Assembly: GCA_019347945.1 (NCBI GenBank)
Contig: JAHWKK010000025.1
Location: 1-58,509, forward strand
Reading direction: 5' to 3'
DNA length: 58,509 nucleotides
Source: Acidobacteriota bacterium
Lineage (GTDB): Bacteria > Acidobacteriota > Thermoanaerobaculia > Gp7-AA8 > JAHWKK01
Part shown: positions 32,752 to 36,335 of the stretch, in pieces
Position numbering within the stretch: position 1 is the stretch's first letter
Layout of the letters: each line of letters opens with the position of its first letter
Translations under genes and position numbers: made by a program
Notes under the pieces: generated by a model
Database searches by the model: none
Seen by the model: only the letters and a program-made list of their open reading frames with translations
What the model was told of the DNA's origin: nothing

Positions 32752-32780
32752 TTGACTTTGCGCGGTGCCTTGGCTAGATT
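32752..32780 (+). promoter_or_regulatory. Strong sigma-70-like promoter of the response regulator
   Basis: TTGACT (32752-32757) and TAGATT (32775-32780) are spaced by exactly 17 bases, about 45 bases ahead of the response-regulator start with a CGGAG ribosome site. This is the clearest housekeeping promoter in the window. Confidence 0.7.
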
Positions 32781-32825: not shown

Positions 32826-34421
32826 ATGGCAACCAGAATCCTACTCGCCGACGACAGCGTGACCATTCAGAAAGTCGTAGAGCTCACCTTTTCGGATGGA
32901 GACTACGAGGTAACTGCCACCACGAATGGCGCCCAGGCGATCGAGATGGCCGTGAAGCTTCGGCCCGACATCATCCTCTCGGACATCATCATGCCCGAGA
33001 AGAATGGTTACGAGGTTTGCGAATACGTCAAGTCCCATCCCGAGCTCCGATCGATCCCCGTCATTCTTCTGACGGGCACCTTCGAGCCGTTCGATCCCGA
33101 GCGTGCCGACAAGGCAGGCTGCGATGCCGTCGTCACCAAACCCTTCGAATCCCAGAGCCTCATCCAGAAGGTCGAAGAGCTGACGAGCAGCGCGCAGGCA
33201 AACCGGGAGAGCTCAGCAGCTGATTCACCGTCGGAGACCGTTCCTCTCGGTACCCTGTCCCCTTTCGAGAACGAGGCTGATCAGGAAGCGCCGGCCGACT
33301 CGGAAACAGGCGGCGATCCCTTCGCCGAGTCCTCCGAAGACAGCGAGCCCGTCCTCGAGCCTCAAACCGAACCCCCGGCTCCCACCGGCGATGTCTTCGA
33401 CGAACCCGCGGGACTGAGCGGAGCCGAAGACGAATCCGCGGCGACGAGGATGATCCCGAAGATGACCTTCGAGGATCTCGATCGCATCAAACAGGAAAGC
33501 TCCGCGGAAACAGAACAACCTCGGGAGGAGCAACCCGTCTTCGAGCAGAGTGCAGAAGCATCCTCCGCAGCTCCCTTCGAAGACCAGGAAGCGCCGGAGG
33601 AGGAGAGCGTTCCTCCGCCTCCCTTCGCCCAGGAGACGGGTTCCGCCCCCTTCCGGATCCCGGATTCGCCCGAGCCGGGAGTCCCCCCGGCCGAGCCGAC
33701 CGGCCCGCTCGCGGAAGAACCCTCCGACGACTCGGCGACCAGAATGATCCCGAAGATGAGCTTCGAGGATCTTCAGCGCGAGACAAAGCAGGAAGATGCG
33801 GAAATGGCTCCGGATTCTTTCGAACAGCCCGAGCCGGAACCCGAAGAGCCCGCTTTTCCCTCGGCACCCACCCGTGCGTCGGCTTCGCCGGAGAGTTCCG
33901 AGGAGGAGGATCCGTTCGGCAGCAGCGCCGGATCGACGGACATCGACGATTCGTCGACCCGCATGATCCCCAAGATGAGTTTCGAGGATCTTCAGCGGCT
34001 GCAGCAGCAGGAAGCGGCCAGCGAGGAGACATCTTCCGCGGAGCCCGACTCAGGCGAAGAGCAGCGTCCGGCGTACGAGCCCCCATCAGCCGTCGAGGGC
34101 TCCCAATCGGAGTGGGAGTCAGCTCGACAGGAAGAGTCCCCGGTCGAAGCCACATCTCCCGGAGGAGACGACGAAGCGACCCCCTTCGGTCGCGAAGATG
34201 ATTCGAGCGAACAGGGCTGGGCGCCGGCAGGACCGACCGAAAGTCCCGAGACTGCTTCCGACTCCCCCTATCCGGATGACGAGGTCGAACGAATCGCTCG
34301 AAGAGTCGTCGAAATGCTGTCGGATCGGGTGCTCCGCGAGATCGCATGGGAAGTGATCCCCGAGGTGGCCGAGATGGTGGTGAGAGAGAGGGTGCGCGAG
34401 CTCGAGTCGCAGGACTCCTGA
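32826..34421 (+). CDS. Response-regulator receiver protein with three TRMIPKM repeats
   Basis: A 531-residue protein. Residues 3-120 form a CheY-like receiver: the acidic pair is in LLADDS, the phosphoacceptor aspartate in DIILSDIIMP, the threonine in VILLTGT and the lysine in VVTKPFE. A long acidic, proline-rich, apparently disordered region follows, interrupted by three near-identical modules at about residues 205, 304 and 376: (A/S)TRMIPKM(T/S)FEDL(D/Q)R. The end (residues 485-525, DEVERIARRVVEMLSDRVLR and on) is a conserved-looking amphipathic helix region. No DNA-binding or enzymatic domain is seen. The repeats look like short docking motifs, perhaps binding partner kinases or motor components; this is inference. 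Confidence 0.85.
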   Translation: MATRILLADDSVTIQKVVELTFSDGDYEVTATTNGAQAIEMAVKLRPDIILSDIIMPEKNGYEVCEYVKSHPELRSIPVILLTGTFEPFDPERADKAGCDAVVTKPFESQSLIQKVEELTSSAQANRESSAADSPSETVPLGTLSPFENEADQEAPADSETGGDPFAESSEDSEPVLEPQTEPPAPTGDVFDEPAGLSGAEDESAATRMIPKMTFEDLDRIKQESSAETEQPREEQPVFEQSAEASSAAPFEDQEAPEEESVPPPPFAQETGSAPFRIPDSPEPGVPPAEPTGPLAEEPSDDSATRMIPKMSFEDLQRETKQEDAEMAPDSFEQPEPEPEEPAFPSAPTRASASPESSEEEDPFGSSAGSTDIDDSSTRMIPKMSFEDLQRLQQQEAASEETSSAEPDSGEEQRPAYEPPSAVEGSQSEWESARQEESPVEATSPGGDDEATPFGREDDSSEQGWAPAGPTESPETASDSPYPDDEVERIARRVVEMLSDRVLREIAWEVIPEVAEMVVRERVRELESQDS

Positions 34422-34422
34422 G

Positions 34423-34953
34423 GTGAAGATCTACACGCGCAGCGGTGACGACGGTACGACGTCGTTGCTCGGAAGCACGCGAGTCCCGAAACACTCACCG
34501 AAGGTCGAAGCCTACGGAACGGTCGACGAGCTCGCCTCGGCTCTCGGCGTGGTTCGCGCTCACTGGAAGGACTCGGTGCTGGACGACCAGATCCATCAGA
34601 TCCAGGCGGATCTGTTCGAGATCAACGCACGCCTCGCGTCTTCCGGCGACAGGTTTCCCGGTGCGAATCCCATCCGCGTCGACGCGCTGGAAACTTCGAT
34701 CGATGAGATGGAGAAGGAGCTCGAGCCTCTGCGAAGCTTCATCTTTCCCGGCGGGTCGGTTCCGGCGGCGCACCTTCACGTCGCCCGGACGATCTGTCGT
34801 CGCGCCGAACGAAGGACCTCGAGACTCGACGAGGACGATCGCGGTGCGCATACCCTCCGCTATCTCAACCGGCTGGCTGACTGGCTTTTCGTCGCGGCGC
34901 GCTACGCGAACCACACGCTGAAGGTCGATGACATCCCCTGGGTCAGGGATTAG
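34423..34953 (+). CDS. Cob(I)yrinic acid a,c-diamide adenosyltransferase (PduO type)
   Basis: A 176-residue ATP:corrinoid adenosyltransferase, which makes adenosylcobalamin, the cofactor of methylmalonyl-CoA mutase. The N-terminal KIYTRSGDDGTTSLLG ATP-binding motif and VEAYGTVDEL are diagnostic, and the cobalamin-side RRAERR and LNRLADWLFVAARY follow. The start is a GTG at 34423, directly after the upstream TGA stop. A methylmalonyl-CoA epimerase in the window needs the same cofactor pathway. The stop codon begins a 14-bp tandem array. Confidence 0.93.
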   Translation: MKIYTRSGDDGTTSLLGSTRVPKHSPKVEAYGTVDELASALGVVRAHWKDSVLDDQIHQIQADLFEINARLASSGDRFPGANPIRVDALETSIDEMEKELEPLRSFIFPGGSVPAAHLHVARTICRRAERRTSRLDEDDRGAHTLRYLNRLADWLFVAARYANHTLKVDDIPWVRD

Positions 34954-35429: not shown

Positions 35430-36335
35430 CTACCTGGCCTCTGCCTCCTGGCCCCCGGCTCCTGTTCCCCTGGACCAGGTTGTCCACCAGAGATCACGCA
35501 GCCACGACGCTCCAGTGGCGAGGCGCTCCGTAGCGAAATCCCGCCCCTCGACGGTTCCGGGGTCGAAGCCGCCATCGCGATCGATCCGGTAGAGGTCCTC
35601 GACTCTCGAGTTCGAGTCGAGAATCATCGCCATCGCCGCTCCGAAGTAATCTCCCCTTGCAACGGGATCGCCCATAGCGCGTCTCACCCAGTCTCTGTCG
35701 ATCTCCCGCGTGACGAACCAGGTCTCGAAGCGGTAGTGAAACGAGCAATCGATCGCATATCCACGATCGTTCGGGACGCCGACCCATCCGTTGTAATGAA
35801 TGGTCGAGTGATGCGGATTCGCGGCATCGGCGACGTAATGCCCGAGGACCCCGGCGTTGTAAATGATGCTCTGTTCCACCTGCCGGCGTTCCGCTACGGT
35901 CAGGTTGCCGCGGAGCCATTCTCCCCACTGGTCCTCGAGCTTCTCGCAGATCTCCGCGATCCGCCACGGAAGAAACCCCGCGGTCGTCAGATCGATCCCC
36001 TTTTTCCGAAGCGTATCCGAGGCCGTCAGCAATTCGAGAAAGTCGTACCGTCCGACAGGCAGTTCGAGATGCTCGACGTATTCGTAGTCGAGGAAATGGT
36101 CCGGCGGGTTGAGATCGTCGATCGACGGCCCGGCGCCTCTCCACCTGTCGGGCTCGTAACCGAGATGAACGAGACCGGGATACGATTCGTGGAAGAACCG
36201 CGGCATTTCGGAAGGGAGGCCCCAGGTGGCTGCCTCGTTCACAATTTCGTGCCCCTTCCGTCCCCAGGCGGAGGCGGGGATCGCGATGATGACCGACATC
36301 AGGGCGACGAGCGGCAGCGCGATCAATCGTTTCAT
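35430..36335 (-). CDS. Secreted zinc-dependent phospholipase C/P1-nuclease-like protein
   Basis: A 301-residue exported protein. A signal peptide (IALPLVALMSVIIAIPASA) ends right before WGRKGHEIV; in P1/S1 nucleases and zinc phospholipase C the mature N-terminal tryptophan and following histidine bind zinc, and that pattern fits here. GHYVADAANPHH supplies further H/D zinc ligands (H-x3-D), and HYNGW follows. Known relatives cleave single-stranded nucleic acid or phospholipids; which applies is unclear. The last dozen residues (RGTGAGGQEAEAR) are encoded by sequence resembling the caggagcc repeats, so the tail may be repeat-derived. Confidence 0.8.
   Translation of the reverse strand: MKRLIALPLVALMSVIIAIPASAWGRKGHEIVNEAATWGLPSEMPRFFHESYPGLVHLGYEPDRWRGAGPSIDDLNPPDHFLDYEYVEHLELPVGRYDFLELLTASDTLRKKGIDLTTAGFLPWRIAEICEKLEDQWGEWLRGNLTVAERRQVEQSIIYNAGVLGHYVADAANPHHSTIHYNGWVGVPNDRGYAIDCSFHYRFETWFVTREIDRDWVRRAMGDPVARGDYFGAAMAMILDSNSRVEDLYRIDRDGGFDPGTVEGRDFATERLATGASWLRDLWWTTWSRGTGAGGQEAEAR

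Follow-up and report, generated by a model that had tools for sequence, protein, structure and literature searches.

In the window, the 58,509-nucleotide stretch of acidobacterial DNA analysed here, a 531-amino acid open reading frame with an ATG start encodes a receiver (REC) domain, then an acidic disordered linker and then a helical tail. The locus raises the question of what kind of regulator this is and of what is done by its linker, in which three near-identical copies of a short peptide, TRMIPKM[TS]FEDL[DQ]R, are present. A preliminary description had read the protein as a response regulator lacking any classical output domain, with the peptides as repeated docking sites. Judged by its sequence, the protein is orthologous to Myxococcus RomR, a member of a family of cell-polarity regulators. 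RomR helps rod-shaped bacteria to distinguish front from back. The occurrence of RomR in Acidobacteria and the lineage-specific nature of its linker are already known; the repeated linker motif appears to be the new part. The features of the region are collected in Table 1.

Table 1. Features of the romR region and its surroundings, in positions of the window.
Feature	Position	Strand	Evidence
Promoter-like TTGACT-17-TAGATT upstream of romR	32752..32780	+	consensus scan, 9/12 matches
romR orthologue, 531 aa	32826..34421	+	homology to Myxococcus RomR
Receiver domain, residues 5-117	32838..33176	+	PF00072, E 4e-22; pLDDT >90
Acidic disordered linker, residues 126-482	33201..34271	+	composition; pLDDT mostly 40-50
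Motif copy 1, TRMIPKMTFEDLDR, residues 207-220	33444..33485	+	pattern, HMM; predicted helix 215-224
Motif copy 2, TRMIPKMSFEDLQR, residues 305-318	33738..33779	+	pattern, HMM; predicted helix 313-325
Motif copy 3, TRMIPKMSFEDLQR, residues 378-391	33957..33998	+	pattern, HMM; predicted helix 386-399
RomR-C helical tail, residues 484-530	34275..34415	+	identity to Myxococcus RomR-C; predicted helices
W508 codon, counterpart of M. xanthus W394	34347-34349	+	alignment to Myxococcus RomR-C
Cobalamin adenosyltransferase, directly downstream of romR	34423..34953	+	PF01923, E 2e-55
301-aa protein	35430-36335		no Pfam match
5S and partial 23S rRNA, contig end	57268-58509	-	

Domain organization and identity of the protein

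The receiver domain, already claimed in the preliminary description, is confirmed by Pfam (Table 1), and its residues D9, D10, D53, T83 and K105 are all in place. When the protein was scanned against Pfam and NCBIfam, REC alone passed the cut-off and no second domain was found; there was no DNA-binding, GGDEF or AAA output domain (PhoB, PleD and NtrC types), and the NCBIfam matches listed, all below their cut-offs, covered REC only. The earlier statement that any classical output domain is lacking is thus correct with respect to Pfam and NCBIfam domains but not with respect to the tail (...VERIARRVVEMLSDRVLREIAWEVIPEVAEMVVRERVREL...), which on alignment is RomR-C, a known output domain without a Pfam entry, and the C-terminal helix that had looked conserved is genuinely so. 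As the tail is RomR-C, the protein is to be regarded as a RomR orthologue, and the notion of an orphan response regulator without output domain is ruled out.

As a reference, a Myxococcus RomR of 420 amino acids (L148) was picked by residue positions. It fits the published M. xanthus numbering at D53, A138, A139, A327, A370, D371, E390, K391, W394, E402 and H420, and the sole mismatch among the landmarks checked is residue 326, which is P in L148 and A in the paper, so that L148 is M. xanthus itself or a close relative. The receiver domain of the window protein is 53% identical to that of L148 over 119 amino acids, and its tail is 38% identical to RomR-C over 42 amino acids, with W508 aligned to W394. 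Both the invariant Trp and the invariant Pro of RomR-C (W508 and P512) and a Glu at W+8 are present. With a REC model made from myxobacterial RomRs alone the window protein scored 161 bits, compared with 81 bits for the highest-scoring single REC of the nine top REC paralogues tested from the same genome. A RomR-C model made only from myxobacteria recovered 97 of 108 homologues tested, the window protein among them at 20.7 bits.

Two other polarity proteins were considered and rejected. FrzS is also a receiver-domain polarity protein, and its structure (PDB 2gkg) is matched by the window REC alone; the output of FrzS is a coiled coil, which differs from the RomR-C tail, so that the likeness is confined to REC. 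The appearance of the tail suggested PopZ-type polar hubs of alphaproteobacteria, in which an acidic disordered linker is combined with C-terminal oligomerising helices. The Pfam scan gave no PopZ-family match and the window protein has a REC; PopZ is kept as a works-like comparison only.

With RomR from M. xanthus (MXAN_4461) the window protein shares REC, a long unstructured linker and a RomR-C with the invariant Trp and Pro. The linkers differ, being acidic with three TRMIPKM repeats in the window protein and Pro-rich and motif-free in Myxococcus RomR (L148). In the available text of Keilberg et al. 2012 (PMC3441718), RomR is placed in Acidobacteria, and its linkers are described as lineage-specific in length and composition and not conserved family-wide; an unstructured, lineage-specific linker between REC and RomR-C, as expected of a RomR, is found in the window protein. 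The RomR homologues of Acidobacteria, Geobacter and others treated there belong to the same family as the window protein, and that text, as far as it is available, notes no repeated motif in them, in contrast to the bounded conserved repeat of the host order. RomR from Bdellovibrio bacteriovorus (Bd2761) likewise has a REC, a conserved C-terminal region and a non-conserved centre; it is located at one pole, part of its REC is not expressed, and a motif is not reported for it in the available portion of the source (PMC6428892).

The preliminary description had also assigned to romR its own strong promoter at 32752. A promoter-like site does exist there, and the consensus scan of the romR region found 2 sites versus 0.2 expected from shuffles, but a consensus match is no proof of strength. 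The cobalamin adenosyltransferase gene lies 3' of romR in 9 of 9 host-order loci, on the opposite strand in one of them (L056), and no functional link is claimed. The gene for the 301-amino acid protein is found near romR in most host-order loci, and the W-G-R-K-G-H close to the N-terminus of its product resembles zinc-dependent nuclease or phospholipase types, to which it may be related.

A repeated linker motif conserved in the host order

An acidic disordered region with three motif copies had been described before, and the copies are confirmed: the linker, predicted to be disordered, contains 92 D/E versus 18 K/R among 357 residues, and the motif Thr residues are 207, 305 and 378, close to but not at the positions of about 205, 304 and 376 given previously. 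Copies 2 and 3 have the same 14 residues (TRMIPKMSFEDLQR), 2 of which are replaced in copy 1. When the whole 3.7 Mb genome was searched with the degenerate-codon pattern TRx[IF]P[KR]M, matches occurred only at the three romR copies, and the reversed-pattern control gave 0 matches genome-wide. A repeat test with 2000 shuffles of the linker, which was limited to repeats of up to 9 residues and reached 9, did not serve as the main control. It is the genome-wide uniqueness of the pattern, the empty control and the conservation in orthologues that argue against chance.

The strict pattern [FY]xGETRA[FI]P[KR]MSF[ED][ED][LM]Q is present in 2-5 copies in all 17 sister-family orthologues that could be recovered. 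With a motif HMM of 22 positions, 3-5 copies were detected in 18 of the 19 host-order genomes, always in RomR, and none in the 130 remaining genomes of the class (149 searched); in the sole motif-negative genome of the host order, romR is broken by the assembly. The consensus in the host order is x-x-x-[EAS]-T-R-[AM]-[FI]-P-[KR]-M-[STN]-F-[ED]-[ED]-[LM]-Q, with a length of 12-15 residues, and its Thr is invariant, being found in 66 of 66 copies from 18 proteins including the window protein and never replaced by Ser. The copies are conserved across 12 genera whereas the rest of the linker diverges. Homologues in which the motif is lost or varies freely, the outcome that would have spoken against the preliminary description, were not what was found: the orthologues keep a constrained sequence, though the copy number ranges from 3 to 5.

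In proteins other than RomR no significant match to the motif was detected in the host genome or the host order; one weak extra HMM match (G015 C507; E 0.001, 12 residues in a 77-amino acid frame) looks like chance. Searched more widely, RomR had 553 relatives (Acidobacteriota, Desulfuromonadota, Anaeromyxobacter and others), and among the best 80 of these REC and, where not truncated, RomR-C are kept and no motif occurs outside the host order. The motif is undescribed in the literature that was searched, a scope that did not include most subscription journals.

The copies of one protein resemble each other (identity 0.80) more than those of different proteins (0.67; 0 of 2000 permutations), and pN/pS calculated between copies amounts to 0.26 overall, the value for the window gene being 0.08. 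Within proteins, same-codon identity reaches 0.66, where codon usage alone predicts 0.53, so that recent duplication or conversion accounts for part of the within-protein similarity. Several proteins, however, are at or below the codon expectation and yet keep the amino acids. The motif is real and under constraint. In the lineage of the window protein all three copies changed alike (A to M and F to I), and this concerted change fits a single common partner as well as homogenisation through duplication.

AlphaFold2 monomer models were obtained for the window protein and a four-copy orthologue (L058) with a 25-sequence alignment (pTM 0.41). In both, REC is modelled with confidence, the linker is disordered and the RomR-C helices are present (484-505 and 512-530 in the window protein). 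The only helices within the linkers begin exactly 8 residues past the motif Thr in 7 of 7 copies, at moderate confidence only (pLDDT of about 58-78 versus about 45 around them). S, T or N at +7 and the acidic residue at +10 are read as a helix capping box, and the models suggest that an extended TRxFPxM half is followed by a helix that would fold on binding.

Polarity partner genes in the host genome

As in M. xanthus, RomR is encoded together with MglA, MglB, an MglC-like protein and type IV pili. The genes for MglB and MglA are adjacent in the host genome (L050; 4e-56 and 7e-100 to the M. xanthus proteins). A second roadblock protein has MglC as its best PDB match (E 7e-6), and its GKAR is aligned to GKGR of MglC, that is, the counterparts of K104 and R106, residues placed at the RomR interface in the literature, are kept. 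The gene for this MglC-like protein is on a different contig from mglBA; by eye, it follows a TPR-like gene and precedes genes resembling those for a biotin carboxyl carrier and a biotin carboxylase (L051, 4956-8011). The PilT family, taken as the sign of type IV pili, has 6 matches in the host genome (best 8e-150). With all core genes identified, the MglA/MglB/MglC/RomR module is extended to the host lineage.

At a cut-off of E <= 1e-28, 47 of 61 relatives yielded a RomR, and all 47 had a roadblock match. In one genus (g20), all 10 genomes (G026, G029, G032, G035, G038, G044, G047, G050, G053 and G056) had no RomR at E 1e-28, no PilT-family match and no roadblock match above the Pfam cut-off, as would be expected if type IV pili and the polarity module had been lost together. 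Being confined to one genus or clade, this co-absence counts as one evolutionary event. With a weaker search, a RomR tail was also obtained from G019, and a fragment of one at a contig edge from G018; in G041 and G057 RomR was not found even by this search.

A docking role for the motif and competing explanations

According to the available text of PMC3441718, the M. xanthus linker by itself takes up an asymmetric position at the poles, and motility requires it as well as RomR-C. The linker there is one of two pole-targeting determinants, although it has so far been regarded as non-conserved. Given that it is polar by itself and needed for motility, pole-linked docking is the most economical reading of the motif copies, although the M. 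xanthus linker has no motif and its pole-targeting role is not simply transferable. We consider it probable that the window protein acts as the RomR orthologue of an MglA/MglB/MglC/RomR polarity module and that its linker motifs serve as multivalent docking sites for one common partner. The idea of repeated docking sites is well supported as an inference by order-wide conservation, purifying selection, predicted helices and the likeness of the copies within each protein. It does not extend to a general code: the motif is private to RomR in the genomes searched, and a widespread docking code is ruled out by its absence from every other protein of the host genome and order.

In such a front-rear polarity module, which would work with type IV pili, REC would receive a signal, and RomR-C would oligomerise and, through W508, dock on the MglC-like roadblock dimer, thereby reaching MglB and MglA. 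The linker would be a flexible tether with 3-5 copies of a linear motif in the host order, in each of which the extended half leads into a capped amphipathic helix formed upon binding. The copies would all bind the same folded partner and so provide the valence for polar clustering or recruitment. From these considerations we infer a polarity-regulator function, motif docking to a common partner and polar clustering by valence, and equally the REC input, the binding of RomR-C to the MglC-like protein and a role in the polarity of type IV pili.

A more elaborate version, which we regard as rather doubtful, is that in the host order the linker has become a multivalent scaffold: its 3-5 tandem motifs, helical under certain conditions and perhaps controlled by Thr phosphorylation, would capture one dedicated folded partner and determine the size of the polar cluster. 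If true, a bacterial polarity protein would here use a code of repeated short linear motifs.

The chief competing explanation is that the motifs are phospho-switches, the invariant Thr being the target of a Hanks-type Ser/Thr kinase and, once phosphorylated, recognised by an FHA domain; the linker would then integrate Ser/Thr kinase signals with the REC input. Kinases of Mycobacterium tuberculosis prefer a hydrophobic residue at +3 and Pro at +4, and the motif has Thr and never Ser, an aliphatic or aromatic residue at +3 and mostly Pro at +4. In addition, Thr and an acidic environment are preferred at mycobacterial phosphosites (PMC6554272). The invariant Thr and the 18 FHA domain matches of the host genome are compatible with this explanation, but such abundant domains, like the Thr, do not discriminate. 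The conservation, moreover, runs on into MSFE[ED][LM]Q, beyond what a kinase or FHA site needs, and a kinase site of general use should recur in further proteins, whereas the motif is private to RomR. We know of no phosphoproteome of the host order, and on the above grounds phospho-switching appears unlikely.

Somewhat less likely still is an intramolecular role, in which the motifs would bind REC or RomR-C and hold an autoinhibited or oligomer-stabilising state that is released by REC phosphorylation. Strict confinement to RomR is what would be expected of an intramolecular ligand, and REC could be contacted by basic motifs lying in an acidic linker. Against this, though weakly given the low pTM of the models (0.41), REC and RomR-C are equally conserved in RomRs without the motif. 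That the copies lack a function of their own and simply arose when a low-complexity linker underwent recent tandem duplication would agree with the excess of same-codon identity, the variable copy number and the repeat-rich linker, but is hardly credible in view of the low pN/pS, the retention of the copies in 12 genera while the remaining linker diverges and the synonymous sites near saturation in several proteins.

The host-order RomR linker offers a discrete conserved module in several copies, the size of which suits peptides, pull-downs and point mutants, and the finding suggests that repeated short linear motifs are possible in bacterial polarity scaffolds.

Further recurrent peptides were noticed in RomR linkers. 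A second one, SPWDE, is absent from the window protein and occurs in the sister-family linkers (L011-L027; 29 copies in 12 proteins), often before the TRAFP motif. RomRs from other families of the class (L031, L032, L033, L035, L037 and L039) have a different linker motif, [DE]F[ST]T[ST]GF[DA][RE]M, usually as a single copy shortly past REC, and lineage-specific linker motifs may be a general feature of RomR. The linker of the RomR from L037 also contains five near-identical tandem units, PPTAAELLTDEHVERVAKRAIELMPPPVA, which resemble the first RomR-C helix.
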